Shown here piece by piece: positions 5,871 to 50,098 of a stretch of DNA of 64,000 bases. A program made the translations under genes and the position numbers. The notes beneath the pieces are model-generated. The model made no database searches. It was not told the DNA's origin and saw only the letters and a program-made list of their open reading frames with translations. Origin of the DNA: Symbiodinium sp. CCMP2592 (Eukaryota; Sar; Dinophyceae; Suessiales; Symbiodiniaceae); assembly GCA_905221615.1 (NCBI GenBank), contig CAJNDT010000606.1:1-64000 (forward strand), read 5' to 3'. How positions within the stretch are numbered: position 1 is the first letter of the stretch; the number at the start of each line of letters is the position of its first letter.

Positions 5871-5880
5871 AGGGCCTGTC

Positions 5881-11730: not shown

Positions 11731-11735
11731 GATCT

Positions 11736-18278: not shown

Positions 18279-18362
18279 AGCAGTTTTAGCCGGCTCTACC
18301 CAGCCGTTGCCCGTTTTGGAGCGCTTGGAGCTAACTGCAAGCCAAAACGCCTGTTCTCCGTA

Positions 18363-23635: not shown

Positions 23636-23640
23636 GATCT

Positions 23641-30216: not shown

Positions 30217-30300
30217 AGCAGTTTTAGCCGGCGCTACCCCGCCGTTGCCCGTTTTGGAGCGCTTGGGGCTAACTGCAAGCCAAAACGCCTGTTCTCCGTA

Positions 30301-31646
30301 TTGAGTTGTGTTACGACAAGAGCCCTTGCACCTACCGTGGAGAGCAGGCGCTCAGGTCCCTCGCCGCTGCAGGTTCGTGTCGTCTCGTTGTCCATTCGTC
30401 ACTGTGCAACGAAAGGCTCGGCTGTACAAGAAGCGAGAGCTGCTACTGGCCTTGCTACTTTCACATTCCCCCATGCGAAACTGCAAAGCGAAGCAAGAAG
30501 CGTTAGCGGGGAGACTACAAGAGCCAGGTGTCTCAAGAAGACAGAGGCTGCTACGACGAAGAGTCCTCGGCACCATACTTTAGCATGTGTAACCAAGTTG
30601 ACTCAAGTCAGAAAGCTACAAGACTACGGTCACGTTAAGGCTACGCTTGTGCGACGTACACTTCAGAAACTACGCTCGTTCTCAGTGGGACTTGCCGTAG
30701 GAACTCAGCTCCAGGAGACCGCGTCGCAGCGGCCCCAGCGCAGCAGCCACAGCGCATCAGCCACAGCAGCCACCGTGAGGCCTCGACGAGGTAGTGCAGG
30801 AAGGTGCTTCAAAGCCCGAAACCGCAAAGAGAGCCCTGCTTAGAGGAGCAGGTCCAGGCAGGGTTGCGTCAAGTTTTAGCGCAGACCTGGGGTCTACGCT
30901 CCATGTCACGAAGAAGATCAGCAGGCTGCAGGGGCTCGCCACAGTCCCGTGAGAGGCACCGGACGGTGCACAAGCGCAAGAAGGGGGAACCACCGATTAG
31001 CCTACTAGGAACGTGAAAGTACGGTCAAGGAGGGAGGCCAGCACTGTTATAGGGCAGTACTGCTGAGGGCATCGCAGAGCAAGGCTCTTACGAAAACCTG
31101 GGTGAGGCCTAATCCCAACACAAGACCCACATACTAGGGGAGGGACATGGAAAGCGGCTGAGCCCAGCTCCAAGCATCTGGGAACGAGAACCCATCGGGA
31201 GCTCGCTCAGGCTTTAAGAGGGGCCTAAGCCAAACACTAGGGACCACAGAGGGAGGTGGGACGGCGAGGCACCCACTACGCTCGGAGGGCTCAGCACGAA
31301 GCCTCAAAGGGTGAGGAGCTTGCAGGAGCTCGCCCGGGCATTCAGGTGGGTGGGCCTAAACCAACACTAGGGAAACCACACGTAGGGGGAGTGGGCAAGC
31401 AGGCTCGTGCAGAGTAGGGGTCACGCCAACTGCACAACTAAGGGAAAGGAGAGGCGTAAAGAGCAAACCCGAAGAGGAGGGGCTTGCAGGAGCGCACACG
31501 GTCCTTAAGGGGTGGGCCTAAACCAACACTAGGGAACCACACGCGAGGGGGGTGGGCTAGGCGATTTGGCACACGACGGCAACGGGTGGGTGCAGCTTTG
31601 CAGCGCACACCGAGGGAGAAGGCCTAAAAACCGAAAGAAACCCGTC
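30301..31646 (-). other. LINE3 3' untranslated region with GGCCTAAACC repeats
   Basis: Homologous to the LINE1 and LINE2 3' regions, with several small deletions (for example in the lead-in near 30903 and in one repeat near 31458). No sense ORF. Confidence 0.65.
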
Positions 31647-33204
31647 CTAGGGAGGGGAAACCGAAAGTTGAAGGTGATCGTACAGAAGGGCAGAGGACGC
31701 AGCTGCCGCCGAGATGGCAGCAACTTCCCATCGCTCAGCTTCTTCAAAGCGACGATGCCACGCCACTCGAGAGGAGCCATGAGCTCGTGAGTCACGTCTT
31801 TGGTTGGCTGCCCGGTCTGCCTTGTCGTTCAAATCACGGCACCGGCGATCATCTAGATCAAGAGGCGGTTGCCAGTCGAGTCGCTTGTTGTGCGAAGGGA
31901 CCCACACCAGGTATACTGCTTTGTAGTCCCTACGGAGTGCCCGTAAAAGGGAAGCCGACTCCTCCGCCAGGCACCGAAGCTTGCTGGTGGCGGGGCTCTG
32001 GACCGAGTCCAAGGCACTTTGGCAATCGACCAGGATTGTCACAGTGGAGTTGTTGTACCGCTGTCCAAGGGGAAGAGCCTGCAGGAGGGCATTCAAACCG
32101 ATCATCTCGTAGCGGAAAGGAGATTGGTCTTCCGCGTCATCACCTGCGGAGAAATTGTCTCCTGAACTCTCCGTCACCACTGCACAAGCGCCCACTCCAA
32201 GGTGATGGCTTCCATCACTGGCAACGAGAAGGTTATCAGCATCTGGTGTCAGGACCTGGCAAAAGTGAGTCCGCAAAGCCTGTATCATGGCCGGGACCTG
32301 ATTGCCAACAGGGGCAGCCGGATATTCCGGCAGGGGGGCTCCAAAAAGCCTTTCTTCGACTCTGTTCGTAGGGGTCTGAAGGCCGTGCCTGTGCATAACC
32401 GTCTTTGGGCATGCCCAAGTAACGTGGGCACGCGAGGGCAAGGAAAGATTGCACAAGCATTTGACTTCAGAGGCTCGCAAAGGGGGAAGACGCTGACGGT
32501 GGTACCAGGCCGAGCCGCCTGTAGCCAGAGAAGCACGACGAACATCCAATGACTGACTTTTCCCGAGGAGCCTATGGCCAGCCAGTGCAAAGCGGATGCT
32601 CGGGTTCGGTGCATCAAGGCTGAGGCCAGTAGCGAGGCCTGCCTCGTCACGGTGGTAAGAGGTTTTGACACGCCCACAACTTGCGATGCCACGTTTGCGG
32701 TGTTCTTCAGTGAGCCAGTCACGCAAAACATGGATGTTCTGCCAACCAAAACAAAAACGTCGTGTCTGCCCGGCATCATCTACTCTGGAGACGGCGGCGC
32801 CATTCATCTCAAGCTGCCAGCCTAGATCAGCTATGGTGCTGACGGCATGGGGAAGGACAGCCTGCACAAGGTTTCCACTGTGAGCTGAACCTCCTGTCAC
32901 GTGTCTCCACACAGCACTCAAAGCCCGCCATTGCAAGAGCCACTTGGGGTCCCACTGCCACCCGTGGACTTCAGCAAGGAGAACCCACGGAGTCTCGCCT
33001 GTGATCTGAGGTTGAAGGGCTCGGTGGGTGGACTTCCGGATGGCAGTGAGATCTTTCGCCTCCGGGGCTGCAACACCGGCAGCCCATGCCAGAGCAGCAA
33101 AGACCAAACTGGAACACACGACCCTTGCAACGTGGAAGGAGGGGCTCAGGATGTTTAGGGCGCGAAGGCGAGCCTGAAGGGTATCAACACTTAACTTAAG
33201 TAGG
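31647..33204 (-). pseudogene. LINE3 ORF2 C-terminal fragment (end of RT and RNase H)
   Basis: Corresponds to about residue 790 to the end of LINE ORF2. It has the complete RNase H (ASDGSHH, YEMIGLNALL, LVDCQSAL, NDKADRAA) but no endonuclease and no RT catalytic core, so it is not an autonomous enzyme. The sequence is otherwise open and very close to LINE2. Confidence 0.85.
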
Positions 33205-33217
33205 CCTGTTCTCCGTA

Positions 33218-33778: not shown

Positions 33779-33994
33779 TTATTTTCCAACGAAACTTCCG
33801 TTAGCGCGCGTTTGGGAAACCCTAACTGCGCTGCAGAAAGGAACCTGTGCAAAGCACTCTCTTTTTTCTCCTAGCGGACATGGGGGGTCGGTTCGGGCCC
33901 GATCTTCGGGCTATGTCGAAACGATGCCACTGGCATTTCAAACCAAAACTCGACCGCTGGTCGGTGGTAAGGCGAACGACTGGTTCACCCCCCC
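33779..33994 (-). repeat. B2 split direct repeat of element C
   Basis: 216 bp nearly identical to B1 (34395-34610), both opening TTATTTTCCAACGAAAC on the plus strand and ending in a C run. Its left edge is the element's 3' terminus. Confidence 0.88.
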
Positions 33995-34228
33995 TACTAG
34001 GGGACAACCCGTACCACGGGGAGATAAAGTGAAACATTCTAGGACCTACTGGGTCACTGCAGCTACTAGGTGCTACTCTGCATTTGCACGGCCTACGGCC
34101 TATATACAAAAGCGCACTCTGTGCTCAAAACTCTCCGCGGGGGAGAGCATAGGAGCGCTGCTCCTGGCAGCTCTGCTGCCAAAGCGGAGTCCCGGACCCC
34201 GCATACTATACAGGGTGTGGTGGGTGGG
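33995..34228 (-). other. Spacer between B2 and A2 of element C
   Basis: About 234 bp with no convincing ORF. It carries two adjacent perfect hairpins, AGGAGC-GCT-GCTCCT and GGCAGC-TCT-GCTGCC (about 34152-34192). Confidence 0.5.
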
Positions 34229-34394
34229 ACAAAAACTTTTTGGATCACAGATCCAACTCCAAGCCGAAAGCTGCACGGCAAAGTTTGTCTAGTGTCACTC
34301 ACACACAAGTGAAAACACTGTTTTCCTTTTTCGACAAACTTTGTCTACACTTTCGGCGGAAAATAAAACCCATTCACGCACGCATGATGGATGC
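34229..34394 (-). repeat. A2 split direct repeat of element C
   Basis: 166 bp matching A1 (44913-45079) except for one T in a T run. Adjacent to B1 with no gap. Confidence 0.9.
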
Positions 34395-34610
34395 TTATTT
34401 TCCAACGAAACTTCCGTTAGCACGCGTTTGGGAAACCCTAACTGCGCTGCAGAAAGGACCCTGTGCAAAGCACTCTCTTTTTTCCTCCTAGCGGACATGG
34501 GGGGTCGGTTCGGGCCCGATCTTCGGGCTATGTCGAAACGATGCCACTGGCATTTCAAACCAAAACTCGACCGCTGGTCGGTGGTAAGGCGAACGACTGG
34601 TTCACCCCCC
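34395..34610 (-). repeat. B1 split direct repeat of element C
   Basis: 216 bp nearly identical to B2. It follows the pol stop by about 33 bp and joins A2 directly. Confidence 0.88.
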
Positions 34611-34643
34611 TTGAAGGCACTCGAAGCCTTACTCACCCCCCAT

Positions 34644-37600
34644 CTAGTCCGCGCCGAGTGACAAAGCCAACGACACTGCGTTGGGAGGCAAAAATTGGCG
34701 CTCTGCGCCAAGCCGTTGTGTCTCTTCCCACCAGTCTCTGCTGGGGCCATCAGCTATATTGCTGTCTGTGGGGACTCGAAAGAAAGCGGCCCTGCACTGC
34801 AGGGATTCTTCGAAGTCCACCGCCTGCGAAACTATCGCAGCTCCTTCCACCTTGCGTGTGAAGGCCTTGTGCAGGGAGGTACGCGCTGCGTCGTTGTCTA
34901 TCCAGACGAACAGGTCGCTGCCTGCTATGTGCTTAGCCCACATCTGCAGGCTGAGCAAGTAGGGCAGCAGCTCGCACTCGTAGACGAGCTGCTGCTTCTG
35001 AGCTCTGGCAGCCCACTGGGCTGTGACTTGGCTGCTGATCTGCAGCCCCCAGGTGCAGGCGATGCCTTCTCCGATGAGCACTGCTCCGAGGCCACACTTG
35101 GGCACGAGTCTCGGGGTCTCCCACTCGCAGGCCCCGTCGATGTAAAGGTGCACTTTGCGGCGTGCATGGATGGACACTGTCCTGGGCGGTCCGTGCACGA
35201 CTCTCTGCAGCAGGAACGCCATGGCTTGGCATTGCTGCTCTGTTAGGGGGACTTGCTCTGGTCCATCCCCAAGGACGTCGCCTACGCAGATCACTGCCAT
35301 GCGAGTGTTACGACCCCAGGCTTGCTGCTCAGCGAAAATGAGCCTGCCGCGCAGGCTCTGCGCTTCCAAAGGGGACATGCTTCCGCGGGCGAGGGCCTCG
35401 CTGAGGACCAACCCCAGCTCTGCTGCGCGGGTTGGCTTGTTGCTCACTGAGATTTCTCCGAGGTGCTGCTTGGACAAGTCCACTCGCACGCCTAGCACGT
35501 CAAAGACTTCGCTGAAGTCTGCGTTCTTTTTGGGCTCTGTGGCCACTTGCCAACCCAGCTTGTGAAAAAGGTTGGACACTGCCAACGTGACGAGCTTTGA
35601 ATGCGCGCTGCGCGTAAGGACGGTGAAGTCGTCAAAGAAGCTTGTCATGACTAAAGCAAGCTTTTCGCGGCCGATGGCTTTGAGCGCTTCGCTGCAGCGG
35701 AGGAAAGCGTGCACGGCGGCAACGGCGCCGAAAGGCATGCTATGCAGGTGGGCGATTTTGACCTTCCCACTCTGTGGGTCCAGCATGACGATGCACGCGA
35801 ATTTCTTGTGTGCGGCCTGCACTGCAAGCTGCTTGTAGGCACTCTTAAGGTCCCAGGTCCTGCCTACAATGCGGTGGGCCCGCTCTGCGGGAACACCTTG
35901 GCGAAGCCACTCCAGGCAAACTGCAAGAAGCTCGTCGATGCTATCGACTTGGACCTTCTCTGTGGTCCCACAGCAGCTGTTAATGAAGCTGCTTTTGAAG
36001 TTATCAATGGGGCGCACTTTGCCCTTTTGAACGACGCCGAAGCGGGACGATACTATCGTCTCGTGCAGCTGCCCTGGCGAGAAGTCTTCCAAAGAGAGCC
36101 AGCCCTGCTGGCCTTCCTCCATAGTGCTTTCCCAGACCCTGTCCGAGATCCCGTCTTGCGAGGGGCGCAGAGCGCTGCGAACACCTCGCATACTGATGCT
36201 TTGGGCGTTTTCCAGTAGTGACTTCTCGTCTAGAGAAGGTGGCAGAATCTGCACTGGCCACAACCCACTGGGTTGTATCCAGCCAAGCAGGGGAAAGCCT
36301 TCTCGCACCTGCTGGGCCAAAGTCTTGTCCGGAAAGTCGATTTCGGTCAGAAGCTTTGCTAAAGCTACAGTCTGCTTGGGCTTGGTGACGCTGTTCACCT
36401 GAGCGTCAATGGACGAACGTACCTCGGTCTCGCGGACTTGGCACTCTGTGCAAGTTCGAGAGATATGCATCGATGCCACCGTGCGGCGCTTGGCCAGCAG
36501 GACAGTGTCCTCGTGGACTTCGGCGGCAATGGCTCGCTTCAGGGATAGAGGCACTGCCTCGATGTCCCTGGCCGGGTGATCGATCAGGTGCGCTCTGCGC
36601 ACCCAGTGTAGAGGCTGCAGCGGGATGGCGATGATGGCTTTCTGGGAGGCTTCAATCCACTGGATGAGCCTTGAGCCCTTTGGGAAGCAAGTCCACGACT
36701 GTGGAATCTTCTGCGGAGTCTTCCAGCCTCGAAAGCACCGCCCTGCGGGGCCTTGGAGAGTGACTTTGTCACTGAAGTCTGGCTCGTAGCGCAGACGACG
36801 CAGTCGCTTGCGACTGAGAGGCGCTGCCCGGAGTGCTGCTGCGCATTGGTCGGCCGCGAGGGAAACCCAGACGGAACTCAACTGAGTAGTGTAGGCGCTT
36901 TCCAGGGATGTGGACCACACTGTGGAACCATCAACTGAGGCTCTGCCCCACGGCAGGTGTTGGTGGCCTCCGTCGCAGTCTCTGCTCAGACCTACGAACC
37001 AATCCAAGTTGGAGAGGATTGCGGTACGTTTGCGGCGCATGCTGCCGAACATGCACGAGTCAAACTCTACTCTGTGAGCTGACTGCAAGGCCTCTCTGAG
37101 GCAGGGCATCCTCCACAGGAGGCTACGAGCCGGATTTTCTATGGACCAGCAAACGCCGCGCTGAGACAGGGAGTGGCAACACTGTGCCATAAAAGCGACT
37201 AGGCTGTTCGCGCTGCGAACTCGCGCGGCGTCGGCTCCTTTGAGGCCTTTAAGGCCCGCTGGGCGCGCTTCGCTGCGCAAGGGGCCCGGAGCTCCCGGCC
37301 TGGGAATCTCTCTAGCTCTGCTAAAGGTGCCGCACGGGGGGGCCCAGTGGACCCATCTCAAATCTTGGTGTGAGAGCACTGCTCTCAGCAAGTTGCGACC
37401 CAACTGGGTGCAGAGGTCGAGCTGAAGGACCTTGAGGCCTCTGGCCTTGGTCCTGTGATCCACGGCGATATTCGAGAAACCTTTCTCGATGGCTGCCTTA
37501 CTAAGGCGACCGAGGCCGCAGAAAACTTCCACAAAAAGCGGAGGCCGAGGGGTCGCTTGCGAAGCCGGCTCGGGAAGAGTAACGCTCCGAGCGTTGTCTG

Positions 37601-37991
37601 CCAGCACGCTGTGCTGTTCGGACAAGAGGAGCACTGGGGGCTCGGCGTTAACCGCGGGCGCGGCGTCGTGAGACGGCGCAGCGGTGGCACGTCCTGGCTT
37701 ACTTGTTGCAGGCGGGTGCAGTGGCGGTGCCGAGGCCGAAGGGTCAGGGCTCTGCCCTGAGCGAGGAGCAAAGGCGGAAGAGCCCAGCGCTGCTGGGATA
37801 GAGCTGCAGGCCCCGTCTCTGAGGGCTGTTGCGGCTCTGCCGCGCTCGGTGCAAGGGTGCCTAGTCAGGCGGCCCCTGCGTTCTTTGGGCAATCTGCGGC
37901 TCCGTGGTCGGTGCTGCCGCAGCTCATGCACTGGTGCAACCCCCTGTCGCACTGCTTGGGGGAGCCGGAGGTCTCGAGGTCGCACCCGCAC
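34644..37991 (-). CDS. pol: Element C pol: methyltransferase-like domain-RT-RNase H
   Basis: A 1115-residue frame overlapping the end of gag in the -1 frame. After a low-complexity Pro/Ala/Ser linker comes a C5-cytosine-methyltransferase-like domain (about 150-370) with FVEVFCGLGRLS (motif I), WAPPCGTFSRAR (nucleophile Cys), SIENPARS (motif VI) and CMFGSMRRKRTAI (motif VIII). The RT follows (about 590-860) with DLKSAYKQ and FFDDF. The RNase H (about 950-1090) shows YIDGACEW, YECELLPYLL, WIDNDAA and NIADGPSR. Pol would be made as a Gag-Pol fusion by -1 frameshifting at CCCAAAG. The frame is fully open. Whether the methyltransferase is active cannot be seen from motifs alone. Confidence 0.9.
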   Translation of the reverse strand: MRVRPRDLRLPQAVRQGVAPVHELRQHRPRSRRLPKERRGRLTRHPCTERGRAATALRDGACSSIPAALGSSAFAPRSGQSPDPSASAPPLHPPATSKPGRATAAPSHDAAPAVNAEPPVLLLSEQHSVLADNARSVTLPEPASQATPRPPLFVEVFCGLGRLSKAAIEKGFSNIAVDHRTKARGLKVLQLDLCTQLGRNLLRAVLSHQDLRWVHWAPPCGTFSRAREIPRPGAPGPLRSEARPAGLKGLKGADAARVRSANSLVAFMAQCCHSLSQRGVCWSIENPARSLLWRMPCLREALQSAHRVEFDSCMFGSMRRKRTAILSNLDWFVGLSRDCDGGHQHLPWGRASVDGSTVWSTSLESAYTTQLSSVWVSLAADQCAAALRAAPLSRKRLRRLRYEPDFSDKVTLQGPAGRCFRGWKTPQKIPQSWTCFPKGSRLIQWIEASQKAIIAIPLQPLHWVRRAHLIDHPARDIEAVPLSLKRAIAAEVHEDTVLLAKRRTVASMHISRTCTECQVRETEVRSSIDAQVNSVTKPKQTVALAKLLTEIDFPDKTLAQQVREGFPLLGWIQPSGLWPVQILPPSLDEKSLLENAQSISMRGVRSALRPSQDGISDRVWESTMEEGQQGWLSLEDFSPGQLHETIVSSRFGVVQKGKVRPIDNFKSSFINSCCGTTEKVQVDSIDELLAVCLEWLRQGVPAERAHRIVGRTWDLKSAYKQLAVQAAHKKFACIVMLDPQSGKVKIAHLHSMPFGAVAAVHAFLRCSEALKAIGREKLALVMTSFFDDFTVLTRSAHSKLVTLAVSNLFHKLGWQVATEPKKNADFSEVFDVLGVRVDLSKQHLGEISVSNKPTRAAELGLVLSEALARGSMSPLEAQSLRGRLIFAEQQAWGRNTRMAVICVGDVLGDGPEQVPLTEQQCQAMAFLLQRVVHGPPRTVSIHARRKVHLYIDGACEWETPRLVPKCGLGAVLIGEGIACTWGLQISSQVTAQWAARAQKQQLVYECELLPYLLSLQMWAKHIAGSDLFVWIDNDAARTSLHKAFTRKVEGAAIVSQAVDFEESLQCRAAFFRVPTDSNIADGPSRDWWEETQRLGAERQFLPPNAVSLALSLGAD

Positions 37992-39121
37992 TGCAGGTTG
38001 AAGCCGTAGCAGAGGCGCTTGCCGGACTTGGAAACACTGTTCAAGTGGCGAAGCTCTTTGGGCATGCTCGGCGGCCTGGCGCGGTCTGCGCTCTCATGGC
38101 GCTTGCCCTTGCCCTTACCGCGGCCTTTCTTGCCGCCTTTCTTACCTTTGCCGGTCGTGCTACGACTGCGGTCTTCTTCGCTGCGCGCCGAGCTGCGGCC
38201 TTTGCCCTTGCGACCCCTGTCCGCCACTGGCGAGGGGAGCAGGTGAAGCGTAACAATCGGATCGGACCACATGTTCTCTACTAGAGAATCTAGTGGCCTC
38301 TTACCATCCTTGTCCGGCTTGCACCCTTTGCGACACTCTCGCGCGAGCAGCGTCCACAGTTCTTTGTCGGCCCGTACTACGTGCCAGCTGTTGCCGCGTT
38401 CCATCCCCGGCGGCGCTGGCCGGTTCAGGACGGAGAAAAACTGTCTCACGAGTCTCTCGTGAATTGTGAAATCCAACACGCCGACTCTGTCGAGCGCGAG
38501 ACCTCGGCGCGTCAGCGCCTGCGTGAGCTTTAGCTCATTGCCGATCTCCACGTGCACGCTGTGCTCCTTTTTCTTTACCGTGATCTCCCCAGACTCTAGG
38601 GAGAGGAAGTCCTTGTCACGCCTCACTGAGGCGATCTCTGCATCCCGGCTGACGCACTGCGACGGCGGGATGTAACGGACGATGCCGTCCTGCAGCATGA
38701 GCGCGGCCTTGTCCACGAGGCTGTTCGCGGGGTCGTAGTCACCTTCGATGACGACGCCCTTGAGGCGCGCAACTTGCGCGGCTCGGCGCTCCTCGCGCTC
38801 GTGCAGGGGCAGGCTCTTTGGGGTGACGCTGTCACCCTCGACCCTCATCTTCAGATCCTGGATACTGAAGGTGAGGCTTTCGAAGGCCAGGCGCCGCGCT
38901 GCGGCCTTGGTGCCTAAGGTCGGCTCTGCCGCCCCGAAGACCTTCTTGATGAGTTCTTCAAACTTCGCATCGCTGATGCGATCGGGTTGGTCGGCGACGC
39001 TGTAAGCGAGCGTGCCGAAGGTGCGGATGTCTGCCGCAAGGAGCTTCGCCGACTCGGCGGCTCCTAGGAGTTGTCCAGCTCTGCTGGAGAATTCTGCGAC
39101 GCTGTCGACGAGGTTTGCCAT
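37865..39121 (-). CDS. gag: Element C Gag-like protein with zinc knuckles
   Basis: The start is placed at the AUG at 39121 (MANLVDSVAEFSSRAGQLLG), four bases after a strong pyrimidine tract and CAG. The frame itself is open a little further up. About 418 residues: helical N-terminal region, then a basic Lys/Gly/Arg tract (GKKGGKKGRGKGKGK), then a Cys-rich end with CYGFNLQCGCDLE and a clear CCHC knuckle, CMSCGSTDHGAADC. It ends NAGAA-UGA followed by CUA. A CCCAAAG heptamer sits in phase 16 bases before the stop codon and would move ribosomes into pol. Confidence 0.82.
   Translation of the reverse strand: MANLVDSVAEFSSRAGQLLGAAESAKLLAADIRTFGTLAYSVADQPDRISDAKFEELIKKVFGAAEPTLGTKAAARRLAFESLTFSIQDLKMRVEGDSVTPKSLPLHEREERRAAQVARLKGVVIEGDYDPANSLVDKAALMLQDGIVRYIPPSQCVSRDAEIASVRRDKDFLSLESGEITVKKKEHSVHVEIGNELKLTQALTRRGLALDRVGVLDFTIHERLVRQFFSVLNRPAPPGMERGNSWHVVRADKELWTLLARECRKGCKPDKDGKRPLDSLVENMWSDPIVTLHLLPSPVADRGRKGKGRSSARSEEDRSRSTTGKGKKGGKKGRGKGKGKRHESADRARPPSMPKELRHLNSVSKSGKRLCYGFNLQCGCDLETSGSPKQCDRGLHQCMSCGSTDHGAADCPKNAGAA
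37883..37889 (-). promoter_or_regulatory. Candidate -1 frameshift heptamer C-CCA-AAG (gag to pol, element C)
   Basis: In the gag frame the codons are UGC CCA AAG, so C CCA AAG fits X XXY YYZ. Slipping back one base continues as PKERRGRLTRH in the open pol frame. Z = G is less favoured in eukaryotes. The local hairpins of element C could act as the stimulator. Inferred. Confidence 0.5.
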
Positions 39122-39165
39122 TGTCCTGCAGGGCGAGAGAAGAAAACAGAGAGAGAGAGACACAC
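39122..39165 (-). promoter_or_regulatory. Pyrimidine tract and CAG acceptor before element C gag
   Basis: The sense strand has about 35 bases of alternating CT/GT and T runs ending GCCCTGCAG, then GACA and the gag AUG. This is a textbook 3' splice acceptor and could accept the dinoflagellate spliced leader. Confidence 0.55.
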
Positions 39166-39224
39166 ACACTGTGCCGACTGCGGGACCTTACTAGGATAGA
39201 CAGGCGCAAGAACTCGCTCTCTTT

Positions 39225-41114
39225 TCACTCTGCATCGAAAGACTTGCTGCTCCAGCACGTCTTGCAGTGTGGCCGGCCTGGGGCCAGGTCGCGAACTTCG
39301 CAACTCTTATACTTTTCATTCAAACAGCGACCACAGAGAAGCCTCTTGGCATTCTCACCGCGACTCGCGTGGAGCTTGCCACTGGCAAGATGACACCACG
39401 AGACGGCCCAGTCCGGGAGGGTGCACTGCACCTCCCTTCTGAGGCGAGGGTGCTCCTCGACCTCTGGCTCGGCGACGAACTCGTCTTCTCTGTCAGTGTC
39501 ACTGGCACTGTCCTCTGTGTCGCTGAGCTCCTGCTGCTGCGAAACCTTCAGGGCTTCCACCCCCACTGGGGGTGCCGAGCCAGAGGAGGTTTTCCGGTGA
39601 GAAACCTTGCTAAGGTTCTCTCGCCTCAGGTTGAGCTGGCTGCTTGGCAGCGCGAATTGTTTCCCGAGCGGCTGGTCGGGAAGGAAGTCGCCATCTCTGA
39701 TGGCAATGAGAACTTCCTCCAGAGCCCGCGCTGCGGGGATGAGCACGTTACGGCTGTACGTCTCGGTGCTCCGAGCACTGTCGTGCACATGGTGGGCGAG
39801 AAGCCTGCGCAGATCCAGGTTGACGCCAGCTTGCGAGGCCCACGTGAGGCAGGTCGCTTTGAGACTGTGACTGCTAAGGCGCTCTGCGTCTTCGCAGCCG
39901 GCGTTGGACAGCGCGCTGCGCAGCCAGGAGGTAATCTCTTGAGAGTTCATCGGGCGATCCGCTAGATCACCATCCGATGTGAAGGCAGGGATCACTGACC
40001 CGAGCGGAATGTCTCCACTGGAGCTGAGGCCCAACTTTTCTCGATTTGCGAGCCACTGACTCACCCAAGACTCTTCGAAGAAAACCACCGGGGCTACCAG
40101 CGGGAGCAGCAGGCGGCTTCTAGCCCCTACGGCGGTTTTCGCCTTGTGAACATTCGCCTGCATCCACACTGTGGCGCAGGGGTCCTCCGGAAGCTCAACC
40201 GAAAAGGAGGCAACTCGGGCCGCGTCACTGGCACGGGCGCATGCGAAGAGCATGAACAACAAGCCCCCAGACACGACACTGTCGTACACAGAGCCAGACA
40301 GCGCGATGCGCTCAAGAGTAGCCACCTCCGAGGCTTTGAGGGCGGGGGCCCGTCTCGGCGGAGGCGCGCTGGCTTCCGTGCTCTTACAAAGGCCCACGAT
40401 GCGGGAGCTGGTCACCTCCGACTCGAAGGAAAGACCGAAAACTCCCGAGCACCAGTTCAGACTCTGAATCAGGCTGGGGGGGCTGCTAGCCCCTTTCCCA
40501 TTCCTCATCATCCACTGGATGTATCGCCAGGTGGCGCGCTCTGACACTGGGAAGGGCACCACCACTGGGTCTTGGCAGTTTGCCCACTGGACAAAATTGC
40601 TGAGGGAGTTGAGACGACGAACCACTGTGTTTGTGGCTTTATAGCTGAGCGCTGCCTCTATGCTGAAGTCGAGCTCGTCCAGGTCGACGCAACCGGCTTC
40701 GTCAGCACACTGTGAGACGATCTCGAAGGCCTCTGGCCAGGCTTTTACCAAAGCCGTCAGTTTGAAAACCGCGCTGTCGCGGCGGTCGCCTTCGTACGCT
40801 GTACGACGGCAGCACACCTTAAGTGCGAAGGCTGTGTCTTCCGCTACTAGCGGCTGAGTGCTAGCGGAAGCTTTCCGCTTAAGCATCAGGCTTGACTCGT
40901 GCAACACTGGCACGGGGCCCACGGAGGCGGGGCGAGTCACTGACAGCTCCCAGGGCCAGCTTGCATTACGCGCAAACCATGAAGCTGATTCCCACGGCTG
41001 ACGAGCACCGGCTCGGCGTGGTATAGACGACCAAAGGTTACTAACCTGGTCGTTGAAATCGCCCTCTGGGGCGCTGCCCCTGGGCAGCATCCTTGACACA
41101 AGGAAGGGGAGCAC
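39225..41114 (-). CDS. Tyrosine recombinase of element C
   Basis: Probable start at the AUG at 41090 (MLPRGSAPEGDFNDQ), giving about 621 residues. The core-binding part contains SLSNFVQWANCQDPVVVPF. The catalytic part has Arg in MLFACARASDAARV, then SSHSLKATCL (H-x-x-K rather than H-x-x-R), LAHHVHD, and a Tyr in STETYSRN. A Cys-rich tail follows (CGRCLNEKYKSC then HCKTCWSSK), probably a zinc-binding module. The start lies about 190 bases downstream of a pyrimidine tract with CCGCAG. YR without target duplication agrees with the clean insertion of the element into copy B. H-x-x-K is shared with the YR of element D. Confidence 0.88.
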   Translation of the reverse strand: MLPFLVSRMLPRGSAPEGDFNDQVSNLWSSIPRRAGARQPWESASWFARNASWPWELSVTRPASVGPVPVLHESSLMLKRKASASTQPLVAEDTAFALKVCCRRTAYEGDRRDSAVFKLTALVKAWPEAFEIVSQCADEAGCVDLDELDFSIEAALSYKATNTVVRRLNSLSNFVQWANCQDPVVVPFPVSERATWRYIQWMMRNGKGASSPPSLIQSLNWCSGVFGLSFESEVTSSRIVGLCKSTEASAPPPRRAPALKASEVATLERIALSGSVYDSVVSGGLLFMLFACARASDAARVASFSVELPEDPCATVWMQANVHKAKTAVGARSRLLLPLVAPVVFFEESWVSQWLANREKLGLSSSGDIPLGSVIPAFTSDGDLADRPMNSQEITSWLRSALSNAGCEDAERLSSHSLKATCLTWASQAGVNLDLRRLLAHHVHDSARSTETYSRNVLIPAARALEEVLIAIRDGDFLPDQPLGKQFALPSSQLNLRRENLSKVSHRKTSSGSAPPVGVEALKVSQQQELSDTEDSASDTDREDEFVAEPEVEEHPRLRREVQCTLPDWAVSWCHLASGKLHASRGENAKRLLCGRCLNEKYKSCEVRDLAPGRPHCKTCWSSKSFDAE

Positions 41115-41288
41115 TGCTCAAGCCAACGGCTGTTGTCCAGGTGGCTTTCAAGAAAAGGCTACCAGCACACGAACACAAGTGCACTCACTCTGGAAAGCTC
41201 AATTCAAGCGACGCGCTGCGACCCGCACCCTCCCCATTCAGTCCTGAGGGAGGAGAGGAGGAAAAAAGAGAGCTGGGAAGAGTGAGGC

Positions 41289-41312
41289 TTAAAAGGCTGC
41301 GGAAAAAACGCA
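41289..41312 (-). promoter_or_regulatory. Candidate splice acceptor before element C YR
   Basis: Sense CGTTTTTTCCGCAG followed by CCTTTTAAG. The same TTTT(C)TTCCGCAGCCTTTT block occurs before ORFb (43151-43175), which suggests a shared acceptor or regulatory module in front of separate cistrons. Confidence 0.45.
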
Positions 41313-41716
41313 CTGAAGATCGCAGGCTCAAATGGTGACACTGCACTTAGAGCAACCTCTGAGGACCTACCAGGTCTCGGGGCACTGCGCACAAACCTAC
41401 TAGGCAAGAAGAGCCTACTAGGCAAAAGAAGATTCAGTCCTACAAGGTCTGTGTGCACACGCAACCTGCGGTGTTCTTTTTGCCAACCTCGCGATGCGAG
41501 TCTCTGGGCGGAGCCCGGTTGTCGAGGTGCGCTGCACCTGCCTTCTGCGATCCGCAGACAGGCCGGTGAGCAGCGAAGGCTCTTGTGGCCGGACTGTGCC
41601 GGCACTGCTGTGCTCTGCACCTGTGTGAAAAAGGGCGCAGACGGAAGGGCCACTGGCCCGTCAAAAAATTTATCCGAACACTGTTCGGAATGCGCTGGAT
41701 TACGCCGCTGGCGTAT

Positions 41717-43129
41717 CTACCATTCGCGATGGTTCCAGCGTCGGTCGTGGTCCCAGGACCAGCGACCACGGGACCACTGGTCCCGGTCCTCGTCGTCACG
41801 GCGGGACCTCTGGTCCTTGCCTTTGCCTTTGCCCTTGCCGTCTCTGCGGCGGGACTCCCGTTCGCGGTGCTCGCGCTCACGGGCCTCGGCTGCCTCGCGC
41901 TGCAAGGTCAGCCGAAGGGACTCGGGCGGCCCCCTAGTAGGGCGGCGCTCGCCACGGTACTCGAGCTTGCCGTCTGTCCGCGGGACAGTGCCTGGGCAAG
42001 AGTAATTTTTCGCGCAGCGTGTGCAATGCATCACGCCGCACTCTGGACACTGCCAGGCCTTGCTGCGACGCTCGTGGGAAAACTGTCCCACAGCGCCACT
42101 GGCGCTAGGCTGATCGTAGGCATGCACTGCAGCCACGAAGGGGTGGAGCTCTCCGCATGCACTGCATACGAATTCCGAAGACGGATCGCTCCAAATGTTC
42201 ATCTGCATGTTGTCGCAGACTGAACATGCGAAGACTCGCTGAATCTCCCCCGCTCGGGGACGCTCCGCCGCTGGCGGGCGAGCTTCCTGATCGTCTCGAT
42301 CAGCATTGTCATCTGACGCCGGGCCGCTGGCCCGGGTCCCAGCGACGCCAGCTGGGTTGTTGCGCGGGGGCTGCTGACAGGGACGCGGGCGAGAGCTCTC
42401 CCCACGACGCGCCACTGGCGGCGGGGGAGGCCGCTTGTTCTGGCGTGGGGCGGAGGCCTTCGGGGGCGCCGCTGGCGCCTGATCCCTGTCAGCTGCCGGC
42501 ACTGCCGGGCTGGAGGACTTGCGCGCCACCTTGCCCTGAAGGGGAGGGTGCGGCTGCGCTGGCGGTGGCGGGGAGTCGCTCTCCGACTCCGACTCTTCCG
42601 AGCGGGAGCCTTGGTCATCTTCGGTTTCGTCCCGCCGCCCGCTGGGCTCCTCCACATCCATATCCTCCGGCGCTGCCGAGGGAGCTTCCGCTGGAAGCGG
42701 TTCTTCTTTGACGCCCGAGCCCGCTTCCTCAGCGGGGCTGGTCGGGGAGCGGCGCTGCGAGGCCGGCGCTGCGGCCGACGTGGGAGAAGAGTTTGCCACC
42801 GCGCTGCGGTGGTCGTCGGAAGACACACCACGGGCCGCCGCTGGCGGCTCGGTGTTCGCAGGAACCACTGGGGGCTCGTAGCCCAAAAGAAGACGCTGGA
42901 GGGCGACGGCATTGGCCTCTGAGCCGCCACTGGCGGGCTTGGTCCAGCCGGCGAGTTCCGCTGCCTCCGCCGCATTTACCACCACGTCCCCTATCTCTGA
43001 TAGGGAGACGGCGGCTTCGTAGATGGCGGCCCTCTGGGCCTCCGGCACTGCACTGAGCGCCTGCAGCATCTGCTCGTTCGTTGGGTTCGCCATCGCTGAT
43101 AGCATACAAAGGCTGTTAGCTGAAGGCAC
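41717..43129 (-). CDS. Element C accessory protein ORFb (zinc ribbon, Arg/Ser-rich)
   Basis: Probable start at the AUG at 43093 (MANPTNEQMLQALSAVPEAQ), about 458 residues. A short helical N-terminal region is followed by long Pro/Ala/Ser/Glu-rich disordered sequence. Next come two Cys-pair clusters, FACSVCDNMQ...FVCSACGEL and WQCPECGVMHCTRCAKNYSC, which look like zinc ribbons. The tail is strongly charged and RE/RD/RS-rich, ending in a GKGKGKG run and Trp/Arg repeats. I do not recognise a family. Its place inside element C, between ORFa and YR, makes it an accessory protein of the element. The zinc clusters and basic tail suggest nucleic-acid binding. Confidence 0.7.
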   Translation of the reverse strand: MPSANSLCMLSAMANPTNEQMLQALSAVPEAQRAAIYEAAVSLSEIGDVVVNAAEAAELAGWTKPASGGSEANAVALQRLLLGYEPPVVPANTEPPAAARGVSSDDHRSAVANSSPTSAAAPASQRRSPTSPAEEAGSGVKEEPLPAEAPSAAPEDMDVEEPSGRRDETEDDQGSRSEESESESDSPPPPAQPHPPLQGKVARKSSSPAVPAADRDQAPAAPPKASAPRQNKRPPPPPVARRGESSRPRPCQQPPRNNPAGVAGTRASGPASDDNADRDDQEARPPAAERPRAGEIQRVFACSVCDNMQMNIWSDPSSEFVCSACGELHPFVAAVHAYDQPSASGAVGQFSHERRSKAWQCPECGVMHCTRCAKNYSCPGTVPRTDGKLEYRGERRPTRGPPESLRLTLQREAAEAREREHRERESRRRDGKGKGKGKDQRSRRDDEDRDQWSRGRWSWDHDRRWNHREW

Positions 43130-43150
43130 GAAAGGGGCGACTTACTAAGC

Positions 43151-43175
43151 TGAAAAGGCTGCGGAAGAAAAGCAC
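43151..43175 (-). promoter_or_regulatory. Candidate splice acceptor before element C ORFb
   Basis: Sense TGCTTTTCTTCCGCAG followed by CCTTTTCAG, 60-70 bases before the ORFb AUG. It matches the block before YR, including a nearby GACCTACCAGG element further upstream in both. Confidence 0.45.
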
Positions 43176-43450
43176 TGCTTGAAAACCGACACGGTTCAAA
43201 GAGCTGACTCAGCTGGAGAGACCTACCAGGCTCGCGTGACACACGACTGAAAAGGGCGAGCGGCAAACTTTTGCCGCATTTCAAATCATGCCGTCGGCTC
43301 GCCGCTGTGGGCGAGGTTCCAAAAACCTCGGAGACGCCCGCCCTGCAGAGGCTGCCGAACTGTCGGCGGCGAAGCAAAAAGAGGTGCACTGCACCAAAGT
43401 GACTAGGGCGACTCACTGAGAAGCCAGCAGCTGCGCGCTGCGCTCAGAGA

Positions 43451-44838
43451 CTAGCGGCGACCGCCACGGGCGCCGTGGTTCCGGGGTCGCTGACCCCGGC
43501 TGCTGCGGTAGCAGTTGTCGCATTCGTGATGATTGTGGGGGCTCCTGCCCACTGAGCAGTGCCGCCCACAAATTGCCATACCTTGGGAAATGCAGCCCTG
43601 CTGCGCGCAGGGCAGACAGCACATGAGGTCGCCTCGCCTCTCCGGGTACCTATCCCATCTCTCTGAGTTGGGTTGTGCCCAATAGGGCCATTCGTGCACG
43701 TCCGTGACGTGCAACTGTGGGGAAACCCTCCTGGCGTGCGTCACTAACGCACGGAGGCCAGGGTACCTGTTGTCGGTCGCTGACCCCAGGTTGCGCCAAT
43801 CGTTATTTTGGGGGTCCTCCCCGGGCTGGAACTGCCAGCCCCGCTGGCGATTGCGACGCTGCGGTCGGGACACGACCACAGTGTTCGCGTTGGGCGCGAA
43901 CGGCACTGCCGTTGCGGCCTGGCTGCTAGCCAGGGATACCTCGGAGTCTCCCGAGTTCTGATCACTGTCAGTATCGATAACTTCGATGGCAGGCTCCGCC
44001 TCTGGCGGAGCGACGTCGGCAGCTGCGGCTGCGGGCGGGCTGCCTGTTGTGGCGCAGCGGGCTTAGCAGGAGCGGCCGCTGGCGGCGGTAAGGGAGGGTC
44101 CGAGGCCGATGCCGACGCTGTCGGCAGAGCGGTACTGGACGAGGCGGTAGGGTCGGTGCTGCCGCTGGCAACTTTGTGAGACTTCTTCTTTTTCTTTTCC
44201 GAAGGGATTATCTTAATCCAACCGCCCTTGCCTTTGCCCTTACCCTCTGGGTGCCAATGGAAGCCGCTGGCTTCCACCTTGGTGGCCACGTGGCCCTCTA
44301 GGGCGTCCACCCAATTAAGTCTCCACTGGAGTTTGGGCACATTATCCTCCTCCCCACTGGGGGGCCAGTCAAAAAGGCCAGTATACGGCCAGCCAGGTGT
44401 GGCCGCTGGCCGCATAGGCACGTCGCGCTGCGACATGGTATACCGGTGCATCGGATAGGCACTGCCTGAGGTATCCGGTTGTTCCCCTTGCATCTGCGCG
44501 AAAGGGTAAAAGGGAGGCCAAACTTTGGACTCCCCTTCCCCTGCGCGGTTCAGAGATTCATGGTCGTCGCTGACGACCGCGGGATCTACCCGCATGGCAC
44601 AGCTAATGGCCCAAAGGAGATAACTTATCTCCTGTTGTGCCATCTCCTCACGCATGGCCTGCTCTAGCACGAAAATTGGATTGCACTGCAAAAAACGGAG
44701 GCAGGAGCGACACTGTCGCACGCGTTGCAAACATTGTGGCGCTGCCAACTGATTCTCTCGACCGTCCCTTCTAGGGTACGGCGCCTCTGGCGACTCAGCC
44801 GCGTAATTGCGGGCTGCTTGGTCAACCATAACTGCCAC
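43451..44838 (-). CDS. Element C accessory protein ORFa (one frameshift)
   Basis: Starts at the AUG at 44829 (MVDQAARNYAAESPEAPYPR). The first ~270 residues have RQCRSCLRFLQC, an acidic/aromatic middle part (VWPPFYPFAQMQG), a GKGKGKGG tract and Ala/Pro-rich sequence. Near 44030, in a GCCCGCCCGCAGCCGC run, the coding sense moves to another frame, which continues as IEVIDTDSDQNSGDSE to a Cys/His-rich end (MCCLPCAQQGC, ICGRHCSVGRSPHNHHEC, CYRSSRG) at 43451. The shift could be a real mutation, a sequencing error or programmed slippage. I do not recognise a family. The clustered Cys/His points to zinc and possibly RNA binding. Confidence 0.55.
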
Positions 44839-44912
44839 TGACAGTTATAAAAAGGGGAGTGGAAGGACGTCGCTGACGACCCCCACTGCTGCGGAGCACT
44901 ACAAGCTAATCT

Positions 44913-45079
44913 ACAAAAACTTTTTTGGATCACAGATCCAACTCCAAGCCGAAAGCTGCACGGCAAAGTTTGTCTAGTGTCACTCACACACAAGTGAAAA
45001 CACTGTTTTCCTTTTTCGACAAACTTTGTCTACACTTTCGGCGGAAAATAAAACCCATTCACGCACGCATGATGGATGC
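44913..45079 (-). repeat. A1 split direct repeat of element C (5' terminus)
   Basis: 167 bp matching A2. Its right edge, GCATCCATCATGCG on the sense strand, is the element's 5' end. By chance the copy B pol frame runs through it to a stop at 44980. Confidence 0.9.
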
Positions 45080-48000
45080 AAGATTTCGTTGGTTAAATCA
45101 TCGGCCTCCTGATTTTCGTCCCGGGGACGCCATCCCAAGTTCAACCGCAAGCCGGCCTTCATGAGAACATGGGTGAGCTGCATGTTCACCATGAGCAAGG
45201 GCCAGCGCGTTGTAGAACCCTTGCGAGTTAAGCCCTCGTTAGACTTATTATCCGTCTGAGCTAAAACCTCCACCTTCATCAAACGCCTAGTTGGCCCGGC
45301 TTCAAGGTGACCGAAGATGTGCAACGCGGCCAGCGTGGCCAGCAGCTCAGCCGATGCCGAAGCCCACTGACTGTGACCTTCTGAGTCAAAGAGGTAAGGG
45401 GCCTCCGAACGTGTGAGTCGAAGTGAAAACCACCTGGACTCCTGAGTTGTGCCTGCGCAATCCCAACCCCCAAGGACCACGTACCCGTCCGCACACTTTG
45501 CGTCAGTGCGGAAGGCCACGCCTGCCCTCTTGACCGATCTTGCTGCGGCGACCTTGAATGTCATGTCCCTGAACGTGAGATCAAGATATTCAAGAGTAAG
45601 GATGACGGTATCGGGCATCCGAGCGACTGAGCTGTCGTTCACCGCTGCCCTCCAGCTGTAAAGCGGTGCAAGGTGTGCCTTAAGCCAAACCAAAAGCCGA
45701 GCAACGAAGCCCAGTCTCCCTAAGAACTCAGCAAACTTGCGAACCGACACAACAAACTTCGAGGACCGGGCCTCAGCGATCCATTTCAAGAGCCACTGGC
45801 CCCGCGATTCCGAAATTCCAACCCTCTGGTCTGGATAAGAAAGTTCGTAACCCACAAAAGCCGAAGTGAGCCCACCGCGGAACTTCTTGTATGCGAAAGG
45901 TGTGCCAAACATCTCGAAGCATGCTAGCCACATGAGCAAATGATGAAATTTTTCCCTTCCTGCGAAGTTGGCGTGAACATCATCTACAAAGACGAGGTGA
46001 TAGAACCACAAGGTCAAAAGGAAGCGTGCGGTGCATCGGCCGATGATCCCGAACAATCTAGACCAAAGGAAGGCGGATGATGATATACCGAATGTTCCTA
46101 CCTTGTTGTACCAAACGACCGGCGTGTCGTTGCGCACCTTACAGCACAACAGAGGCCAGTCGGCCTCTCTGACAAGGAACAACCTGTGAGCCGCCGTCAC
46201 ATCGCCGGTGATGCAAAAGGTGGCCTCCTGACTCTGCTTCGCGCTGCGCACAAGGTGAACTACTTCCTGGGGTCCGGGATTAGATTGCTGATTAAGTAGC
46301 CTAATACCATTGTTGACGTGCACACCGTGGGTGCCATCGTGTAACGGCCGAGCGGAGCCGTCTGGTTTAATCAAGGAACCTAAAGAAGCTATCCTAACCC
46401 TATCCCGCCCGTACTTTTGCTCAAGAACCGGCAAAGTGGATGGCGCCATGCGCCCAAGAGCCTCTTCCTCTGCAAACTTCTTCTCAAGCTGATCCGATGT
46501 TTCGTTTGCCGACGAATAATTCTCGCGATGCCACTCGGCATCCGATTCATCGAGCTTGCGGGACTTGTACTTGTACTCGTACACCTGTGGCAAGTGAGGC
46601 GCGGGGCAGTCATAACCGATCGCGACCCCGCTGACATAGGAGTCCCCCTGGCAAGAAACGGCTTTCCAATCTGGGTCCTGCAACAGCCGCGCTGTCGCAG
46701 ACACAGCATGCAAGAAGAATGGCTGGCCACTCGGCACCACGTCAAGATCCGTGCACTTGCCTCCCGAAGCAGCCTCTATGCAACTAAACCACTCTTTCCT
46801 AAGGATCCCTAACATCTCTGGAGTGAAGGGTGATTCCTTAAGGCGGCCTAGCGCAAGCTCCATCGCCGTGCGCCTGACATCAGGCACAACGTCCGCTACA
46901 AAGTCTCGAAGCACTTGATGCATGGAAGTGGCGAACTCCAAAGCTTGCTTGGGCAACAGGCCCCCCCTGGCTTCCGGAGGCCATCTAGTGGGTGAGCAGA
47001 GCCCAAAGCCATCCGTGATCGGCTGAGTTTTGCCGTCCCACTCGAGGTTCAAAGGCAGTCCGATGTTGTGGCACTCCTGATGCTTGAAGGGCTCCGGTCT
47101 TTCGACTTCGCCCCCCTCCAGCACCTCCGAATCATCCGACTGGACCGCCTCAAGATCAACACTGTGCTCTTCGCCCGGAAGGACGAAACCATGCCCGCGA
47201 AGAAACGCGAGATCCTCGTCGCATGCCTGAGTATGCTCCGACACACTGAAAGCTATGATGACTAATCTCTTACCTTTCCAGGGCATTGTGAGGTGAAGAT
47301 CGCGATAAGCATGTATGTAAGTGGGTGTCTCACTGATCGGAAGGAGGTGACCATTTAAGCGCCTACCGTCAACTATCTGAACAGATTCCCCACCCTGGGC
47401 CTCGACCCAGATCTCTCCTCCTACGAAGTCAGTAACCCCTATTATCCCATTGGGCAAAGGTGCGTTCCTGGAGTCTTTGTGGGGCTTAGTGCCAGTGTTA
47501 AGGTAAAGGCTAATCGTGGTAAAGGGGTGCCCGGGCATGTTGCTACGCACGAATGATGCCAATGCTTCAGTGGAAGCCGGGAAGCCTTTGCACGCGGACC
47601 TGAGCCCGATCAGGCCTCCACCCTTCCGGTACAAACCTGTCGAAAAGCTGCTAGGAACCCAATTGGAGGACACCGCCGACCTAGGCGGAGTCTCCTGCGG
47701 CAGCAGTTTGAAGAGTGCGTGAACCTCGGCCCGCGTCGGGGCCCTCGACGAAGAAATGATGCGTGCAAACTCCTCGGCTTCAACCTGTTTCTTAACCCCC
47801 CTAGGTGATGCCTTCGGATGCGGTTGCCCCGAAGAGTCTGGCGACGGCAACAAAGTGGAAGGAGGTGCTTCCGACTCGATCAAGCCAACCGCCTCTACCC
47901 TATCTGTAACCGCCTCTACCCTATCGGAAACCACCTGATGCAGACCCTGAGGCACTTCACATAAATCCTGATGCACCTCCTGCGTCTCCTCGTGGGATTC

Positions 48001-48102
48001 CTGCTGCACCTCCGGCCAAACCTGAGGTGCCTCACAAAACTCCTCCTGCATTGGACCTGCCTCACCTGGAACGAAGCTGTGCGACGCTGACCCAAGTCCC
48101 CC
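45080..48102 (-). pseudogene. pol: Copy B pol, main part: 2OG-oxygenase-like domain, RT, RNase H
   Basis: Open from MQEEFCEAP (48051) to the element C boundary. It includes the oxygenase-like domain (about 47180-47560: PHKDS, GGEIWVE, then LHLTMPWKGKR). The RT (about 46500-45750) shows KPDGSARPLHD, CITGDVTAAHR, FVDDVHANF and FVGYELSY. The RNase H (about 45510-45110) shows RTDAKCADG, AELLATLAAL, QTDNKSNEGL and NQEADDLTNE. The true C-terminus lies at 33778-33592. The upstream part is out of frame because of the 541-bp duplication. As a family member it supplies the domains that copy A loses at the window edge. Confidence 0.85.
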
Positions 48103-50092: not shown

Positions 50093-50098
50093 TCACTC
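50088..50098 (-). promoter_or_regulatory. Candidate UGA readthrough site between gag and pol (copy B)
   Basis: The same UGA-CUA context as copy A, with pol in frame after it. Confidence 0.6.

Follow-up and report, generated by a model that had tools for sequence, protein, structure and literature searches.

Element C belongs to the tyrosine-recombinase retroelements and has split direct repeats. It occupies positions 33779-45079 of a 64,000-nucleotide stretch of DNA from Symbiodinium sp. CCMP2592 (assembly GCA_905221615.1, contig CAJNDT010000606.1, positions 1 to 64,000), the whole of which we call the window. The sense strand of element C is the minus strand. We find that element C is dense with small perfect hairpins that share a three-nucleotide loop, which reads AGH on the sense strand (H = A, C, or T). 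AGH hairpins with stems of at least 5 bp number 92, compared to 2.1 expected, an excess of about 44-fold. The hypothesis we favor, with a probability of roughly one half, is that selection keeps the hairpins because an RNA-binding protein, most likely the Gag-like protein of the element, binds them as repeated sites that mark the RNA for assembly.

Between positions 33779 and 45079, there are 69 perfect stems of at least 6 bp that enclose a 3-nt loop and 120 of at least 5 bp. Twenty dinucleotide shuffles give means of 3.45 (maximum 10) and 14.45 (maximum 25), respectively. The sense-strand loop is AGH in 56 of the 69 longer stems and in 92 of the 120. A preliminary description of this DNA had reported at least 38 perfect inverted repeats of 6-8 bp with a 3-nt loop, and it put the chance expectation at about 3 of at least 6 bp in 11.3 kb. 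The shuffles agree with that expectation and the excess is real, but the count was low. The loop had been given as NCT on the plus strand: ACT, GCT, and TCT are indeed the favored loops, but C at the N position is not, and the corresponding sense loop, AGG, is at background. Each of the 12 hairpins named as examples is a perfect inverted repeat whose loop is ACT, GCT, or TCT; the one placed at 44259-44275 extends to 8 bp, at 44258-44276. The excess likewise stands against codon-shuffled controls. Specifically, the five open reading frames (ORFs) of element C contain 15, 7, 7, 9, and 8 AGH stems of at least 6 bp, whereas no more than 2 occur in any of 200 synonymous shuffles per ORF.

Lowering the limit to 4 bp gives 144 AGH hairpins, with a mean spacing of 78 nt, that cover 17% of element C. 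The smallest centre-to-centre distance among them is 15 nt, and therefore none overlap. Because second copies of repeats hold 7 of the 144 (leaving 137), the number of independent hairpins is slightly below 144. Regular spacing, as would be expected of an ordered coat, initially appeared to be present (p 0.0005), but this signal disappears once the null model includes mutual exclusion of hairpins (p 0.36). Among other loop sizes, a loop of 1 nt gives 43 stems at 6 bp compared to 3.85 expected, but 38 of them belong to the ACT class, whose A and T are then scored as a pair. At stems of at least 5 bp, loops of 5 nt are mildly raised (23 vs 10.4), and sizes 0, 2, 4, 6, 7, and 8 are at about chance or slightly higher (size 2: 25 vs 15.3).

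The excess is confined to element C. In its 3-kb flanks, AGH hairpins of at least 4 bp number 0 and 1, and no such excess is present in element D, in the ORFs of the neighboring long interspersed nuclear elements (LINEs), or elsewhere in the 64-kb window. Single stems do occur there: one LINE copy has a single AGT-loop stem, and in the region 45080-54116, 2 of 135 AGA sites form stems of at least 5 bp. Two LINE ORFs contain 0 AGH stems of at least 6 bp. The preliminary description had likewise stated that the LINEs and element D do not look like this. The following AGH hairpins have stems of 7 or 8 bp.

44615-44633, minus strand, 8 bp, loop AGT
44562-44578, minus strand, 7 bp
44258-44276, minus strand, 8 bp
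44110-44126, minus strand, 7 bp
43993-44011, minus strand, 8 bp
43918-43934, minus strand, 7 bp
43481-43499, minus strand, 8 bp
42989-43005, minus strand, 7 bp
42796-42812, minus strand, 7 bp
42319-42335, minus strand, 7 bp
42287-42303, minus strand, 7 bp
41769-41785, minus strand, 7 bp
41673-41689, minus strand, 7 bp, between ORFs
40863-40879, minus strand, 7 bp
39558-39574, minus strand, 7 bp
38965-38981, minus strand, 7 bp
38821-38837, minus strand, 7 bp
38446-38462, minus strand, 7 bp
37744-37760, minus strand, 7 bp
37371-37387, minus strand, 7 bp
36587-36603, minus strand, 7 bp
36260-36276, minus strand, 7 bp
35504-35520, minus strand, 7 bp
34695-34711, minus strand, 7 bp
34165-34181, minus strand, 7 bp, non-coding 3' region

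Counted per site, and for stems of at least 5 bp, the sense loop AGT has the highest share of hairpins (38 of 225 sites), and AGC (34 of 337) and AGA (20 of 214) are likewise favored. AGG is at background (2 of 204), and the CGN, GGN, and opposite-strand loops in element C are at or near it. The closing pair is usually C-G, as had been proposed: among the 92 stems, 65 close with C-G, 12 with T-A, 9 with A-T, and 6 with G-C. Pairing is elevated from pair 1 through about pair 6 and is at background from pair 7 on. The stems have no sequence in common, and stem length shows only a weak, non-significant relationship to A+T-rich cores (Spearman -0.13, p = 0.11). Two minor classes were observed. Sense TGT loops form stems of at least 5 bp at 5 of 113 sites (e.g., 34240-34256, 44925-44941, and 41090-41104), and two of these five are both copies of one hairpin in the repeat called X below. 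In eight AGH hairpins, compared to 1.3 expected, a 3' bulge follows the closing pair (e.g., sense loop CAGTGT), a topology like that of the iron-responsive element (IRE). Hidden splice acceptors were considered as a cause of the motif and rejected on the ground that AGG, the acceptor-like context in dinoflagellates, is not enriched.

How do the hairpins coexist with protein-coding sequence? Coding DNA has 114 AGH hairpins in 8924 nt and non-coding DNA has 30 in 2377 nt, an equal density, and codon shuffling abolishes the excess; both results support the earlier view that the constraint acts on nucleic acid and not on protein. In the five ORFs, 151 AGH sites are protein-permitted, that is, a stem of at least 5 bp is possible there, and 75 of the 151 carry a hairpin of at least 4 bp, whereas codon shuffles (100 per ORF) place about 6 hairpins in total at such sites. 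Far fewer permitted sites are realized in five other loop classes (2 of 38, 2 of 108, 3 of 92, 1 of 100, and 2 of 80), and permitted AGH sites elsewhere are realized at 1 of 92 in two LINE ORFs and at 0 of 13 in a D ORF. Hairpins had been said to occur in every ORF in different codon phases. They do occur in five of five ORFs and in all phases, but the phases are unequal: with the central G of the loop at codon position 1, 2, or 3, hairpins form at 46 of 236, 48 of 163, and 20 of 226 sites. The depletion at position 3 (20/226 vs 94/399, p = 2.8e-6) is a mark of protein constraint because that phase has the fewest wobble-containing stem pairs. ORF1 alone lacks the depletion (7, 7, and 8 hairpins).

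The proteins themselves carry traces of accommodation. At columns that are highly conserved in relatives, the consensus residue is kept inside hairpins of at least 5 bp in 8 of 8 cases in the Gag-like protein (122 of 132 outside) and in 14 of 15 in the reverse transcriptase (RT; 157 of 179 outside). It is kept less often inside hairpins in the recombinase (14 of 25 vs 173 of 218, p = 0.021), where residues in hairpins are also less like those of relatives (0.31 vs 0.46). In the Gag-like protein, highly conserved columns account for 17% of the residues in hairpins, compared to 34% of the others. Around serine, complementarity of codon middle bases is raised in five of five element C proteins compared to shuffled proteins (z 1.6-3.1). 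This serine-flank trace, together with the lower conservation in the recombinase, indicates that amino-acid changes helped to build hairpins where they were tolerated.

The details of pairing bear on which molecule is constrained. AGH hairpins with one interior mispair (stem positions 2-4) have 16 G.U, 2 A.C, and 12 other mispairs, compared to 10 G.U, 25 A.C, and 69 other at all other centres in element C (G.U vs A.C, Fisher p = 3e-5). We infer that a process acting on double-stranded palindromes, or the copying of one arm, would not be expected to distinguish G.U from A.C. G.U is not preferred farther out, at positions 5 and 6, where the stems end (G.U:A.C of 7:6 and 3:13), and therefore strand-biased mutation alone is insufficient. 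One-base bulges, after 1-4 pairs and in eight classes, occur in 25 AGH hairpins compared to about 6 expected. Beyond the closing pair, the G+C of stem pairs is 0.703 (609 pairs), close to the 0.699 expected of independently paired bases; a copied arm would have the G+C of the composition, 0.603 (p = 4e-7), or of the flanks, 0.5625. Interior G.U, bulges, and stem G+C thus appear to reflect selection on the fold of the sense-strand RNA, with the proviso that all three tests read alike for sense-strand DNA and RNA and cannot separate the two. In 100-nt windows, folding z is -1.10 for the element C sense strand, -0.87 for its antisense strand, -0.27 for a LINE, and +0.05 for D. Predicted hairpin probability is 0.70 on the sense and 0.74 on the antisense strand, so energy folding does not tell the strands apart.

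Element C has the following parts. The sense-strand order of its repeats is X - internal - Y X Y, and its genes, 5' to 3', are ORF1, ORF2, tyrosine recombinase (YR), Gag-like, and RT.

33779-45079, minus strand (sense = minus): element C, tyrosine-recombinase retroelement, with end repeats; hairpin density drops to background at its limits
44913-45079, minus strand: split direct repeat X, 5' copy (sense), 99.4% identical to 34229-34394
43744-44838, minus strand: ORF1, 364 amino acids; with 20.1 hairpins per kb, the densest of the five ORFs
41717-43129, minus strand: ORF2, 470 amino acids, Cys-rich, resembling a zinc ribbon by eye and ending in a basic GKGKGKGK tail
39225-41114, minus strand: tyrosine recombinase ORF, 629 amino acids, with Pfam and structure matches
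37865-39169, minus strand: Gag-like ORF, 434 amino acids, with a helical domain, a GKGKG linker, and a C-terminal CCHC-like knuckle; proposed reader of the hairpins
38834-39115, minus strand: SAM-like N-terminal region of the Gag-like protein, residues 19-112
34644-37991, minus strand: RT ORF, 1115 amino acids, with a methyltransferase-like N-terminal part (motifs by eye)
34395-34610, minus strand: split direct repeat Y, inner copy, 98.6% identical to 33779-33993
34229-34394, minus strand: split direct repeat X, 3' copy
33779-33993, minus strand: split direct repeat Y, outer copy, which forms the 3' end of element C

The X and Y pairs differ at four places only, too few to be informative. The recombinase ORF matches Pfam Phage_integrase at E 4.3e-4 (20.5 bits, under the cut-off of 27.1). 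Its AlphaFold model, of low confidence (mean pLDDT 46.9), matches Cre recombinase in Foldseek (E 1.3e-5, probability 1.00), and all 32 of the PDB matches of that model at E<=1e-3 are Cre, Cre variants, or an integron integrase. The RT ORF matches RVT_1 at E 1e-4 (22.5 bits, under the cut-off of 29.6); its homologue P0002 has a precomputed PF00078 assignment, and the FDD region is conserved in the RT alignment. The Gag-like model is of higher confidence (mean pLDDT 84.5), and its N-terminus weakly resembles SAM domains. Pfam finds zf-CCHC in this ORF only at E 0.89. A retroviral-capsid fold is not among the PDB or viral library matches listed for the model, an outcome that excludes nothing. ORF1 has zero Pfam matches at E<=1, and ORF2 has only two, both sub-threshold. 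Searches of PDB sequences with the RT sequence and with the RT, YR, and Gag alignments gave nothing convincing. The N-terminal third of the RT ORF displays, by eye, cytosine-methyltransferase-like motifs (FVEVFCGLGRLS, WAPPCGTFSRARE, and SIENP) that are partly kept in the RT homologues P0001-P0003; Pfam has no match to this part.

Relatives of element C were compared as proteins. The homologue searches scored the 8000 candidates sharing most words, and among these are 79 Gag-like homologues (P0020-P0098), a large family. Two of them have Symbiodinium names, which, like the GKGKG-rich proteins and a G+C of 57%, is in keeping with a dinoflagellate host. Several Gag-like homologues come from contigs whose lengths (93679, 151749, 58893, and 954892) equal those of contigs with recombinase or RT homologues. 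The alignments contain 59 of the 79 Gag homologues (A3), 9 of 11 YR homologues (A2, without P0018 and P0019), and 3 of 3 RT homologues (A1). P0010 looks like a fusion between a recombinase and a Gag-like protein. Identity to element C is 42-51% for the recombinase relatives, 48-84% for the closest 14 Gag-like relatives, and 48% for P0001 (RT). No clear serine trace is present in the YR relatives P0009-P0017, nor does one appear when the 79 Gag relatives are compared in three groups. In single Gag relatives, a weak test for such short proteins, z is 0.4 for P0023 (84% identity) and 1.4 for P0025 (75%). For P0001 the trace is ambiguous, with z of 1.7 and 1.9 on two of three measures. Serine and arginine together give higher values in two of the Gag groups (z 3.9 and 2.2) and on one YR measure; this signal was discounted because the controls (Asp; Thr/Asn/Gly/Gln) are raised too and the rows are related.

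At recombinase hairpin sites with amino-acid changes, a hairpin is still possible at 1 of 13 in P0009, 0 of 10 in P0010, and 1 of 9 in P0013. At alignable Gag hairpin sites, one is still possible at 7 of 8 in P0023 and 7 of 8 in P0025, not significantly different from control sites. Overall, 0 of 15 comparisons showed hairpin sites to be protein-feasible in relatives significantly beyond control sites. Sites with hairpins of at least 5 bp are mostly gap-free against relatives (8 of 10 for P0023, 13 of 15 for P0009, and 15 of 22 for P0001). The two arms show no clear difference in divergence from relatives, although the 5' arm comes out slightly less diverged in each of three comparisons. Scans of viral and genome contigs for related DNA yielded no relative. 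The simplest reading of these protein sequences is that the hairpin code would be specific to the lineage of element C, perhaps including its near relatives; other relatives may have fewer or shifted hairpins.

The mechanism we propose is as follows. The sense RNA would carry, along its full length, 4-8 bp stems of any sequence, with AGH loops usually closed by C-G. Natural selection on the RNA fold, for which the pairing data provide indirect support, would keep these hairpins, with synonymous codons and tolerated amino-acid changes building them while the proteins are retained. An RNA-binding protein would read the triloop and ignore the sequence of the stem. If that protein is the Gag-like protein of element C, coating of the RNA could enable it to recognize and package its own transcript. 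In favor of the Gag-like protein as the likely reader are its basic linker, its CCHC-like knuckle, and an N-terminus that weakly resembles SAM domains. That the excess is limited to a single loop class, a single strand, and a single element counts in favor of binding sites of this kind. More tentatively, and with somewhat greater doubt than belief, we speculate that the hairpins constitute a self-identity code: a single triloop hairpin, present more than 100 times, of recent origin in a single lineage, that has reshaped synonymous codons and tolerated amino acids in all of the genes and is read by the element's own, possibly SAM-type, Gag-like protein such that only its own RNA is packaged. 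Packaging by way of such hairpins would offer a simple answer to how a retrotransposon protein selects its own RNA from among many, and it would reveal the extent to which protein-coding sequence can yield to a code at the RNA level. The generality of dispersed packaging signals is debated because viral motifs are weak and degenerate; the near-invariant motif and roughly 44-fold excess in element C make the idea directly testable.

The reader could instead be a host protein of the IRE, Smaug, or Roquin type, which acts on stability, export, or translation, with the same RNA-level selection and with hairpins that control or protect the transcript. Eukaryotic proteins that recognize a hairpin via its loop are known (PMC11499389), and 30 of the 144 hairpins are non-coding. 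Moreover, the Gag relatives lack a clear protein-level trace, which suggests that the Gag family alone does not demand hairpins. The LINE ORFs and element D, which share the window with element C, have no excess, making a factor that serves all elements unlikely, and more than 100 copies per RNA far exceeds what such regulatory elements are known to use. We regard a host reader as rather unlikely. Slightly less credible to us is a purely mutational origin, in which snap-back (quasi-palindrome) templating by RT at CAGHG perfects imperfect palindromes and no function is required. Such a process accounts for the single element, the single loop orientation, and the equal coding and non-coding density, and stems do fade at 6-7 bp. 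In addition, 76 permitted sites remain unrealized in about 9 kb, similar to the 91 in about 10.4 kb of LINE ORFs, as though the hairpins were later additions that came with amino-acid change. What a templated repeat should show, by our reasoning, is one copied arm and no wobble preference. Element C shows tolerance of interior G.U and not of A.C, enrichment of bulged variants, stem G+C that fits independent pairing and not a copied arm, and arms that do not clearly differ in divergence; nor does templating provide a reason to exclude AGG loops.

Two further origins appear considerably less probable. One is that the hairpins fold in sense-strand complementary DNA, where the recombinase or a different DNA-binding protein would recognize them as the element replicates. 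G.T is a well-tolerated mismatch in DNA, and so the G.U data cannot separate RNA from sense-strand DNA; elements of the DIRS order, moreover, probably go through DNA intermediates. Recombinase sites, however, would be expected at the ends and not every 78 nt, and it is as RNA that the element is expressed and packaged. We consider this origin improbable. The other, to which we give almost no credence, is that small palindromic inserts are scattered over element C. Hairpins at many positions and in all three codon phases fit inserts, but the stems have no common sequence, most hairpin sites are gap-free against relatives (in the three comparisons given above), and the codon phases are biased, with depletion where synonymous change helps least. 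Of the causes that the preliminary description had proposed, therefore, RNA signals fit best, whereas palindromic inserts and snap-back templating fit badly.

The window contains other repeats as well. Head-to-tail LINE copies lie at 5881-33214 (5881-21294 vs 17784-33214, 97.6% identity over 15.4 kb, offset 11.9 kb); one LINE ORF has an OTU-type cysteine protease domain and the other an endonuclease and RT. A second repeat is present twice (1450-5875 vs 49681-54116 at 93%; 1-1010 vs 47067-48106 at 90%), and the ORFs tested in this 1-5875 / 47067-54116 repeat have no Pfam match. Element D contains a 560-bp tandem duplication, with 99% identity, at 47559-48658.

Comparison with known systems places element C as follows. 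The split direct repeats of Ngaro, PAT, and VIPER are described as running X - internal - Y X Y, and element C shares with them this repeat order, an RT, and a tyrosine recombinase (PMC6681497). Specifically, the features of the DIRS order found in element C are the RT and tyrosine recombinase domains, both under the Pfam cut-off, and the split direct repeats. Unlike those elements, element C has the ORF order recombinase, Gag-like, RT, two extra upstream ORFs, and hairpins throughout. Among the papers listed by literature searches, judged by titles and abstract openings, none showed a retroelement with a similar hairpin code, which fits the statement in the preliminary description that no such retroelement was known to its author. 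Some RNA viruses have genome-scale ordered RNA structure. Element C resembles them in the pervasive structure of its coding RNA but differs in that the structure is one uniform small hairpin with a fixed loop.

Regulatory hairpins provide a second comparison. The Smaug loop is CNGG(N); the core in element C is instead C-AGH-G, with AGG loops at 2 of 204 sites. Smaug/Vts1 elements are like those of element C in being short hairpins read via the loop, as the passages on such readers describe (PMC11499389), and the weak resemblance of the N-terminus of the Gag-like protein to SAM domains may add to the likeness. Judging from a title in the reference list of that paper, several Smaug elements can lie in one ORF, that of the Hsp83 mRNA (PMC11499389). 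The number and density of the hairpins in element C nonetheless differ from those of Smaug elements. The IRE has the loop CAGUGN, a pseudo-triloop closed by C-G. AGT as the best loop and the eight hairpins with a 3' bulge after the closing pair are reminiscent of it. However, only those 8 bulged hairpins could mirror the unpaired sixth base of the IRE loop, compared to 92 that pair on for at least 5 bp, and element C also has AGC and AGA loops and hairpins spread across the whole RNA. Rfam has no match to element C at the gathering score.

The closest parallel comes from viruses. Dispersed RNA packaging signals are described in single-stranded RNA viruses and hepatitis B virus, and, as in element C, there are many stem-loops per genome, with a short common motif that is compatible with coding (PMC6281560, PMC7612645). 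Unlike the viruses, element C is a eukaryotic retrotransposon with a near-invariant triloop in more than 100 copies, known here from sequence alone. Dispersed packaging signals are far less uniform than these hairpins. A packaging system of this kind has two marks. Binding of the motif by the coat or Gag protein, with an effect on assembly, is predicted for element C; the other mark, many stem-loops with a common loop motif along the genome above chance, is present in it. Among known systems, element C is nearest to dispersed packaging signals.

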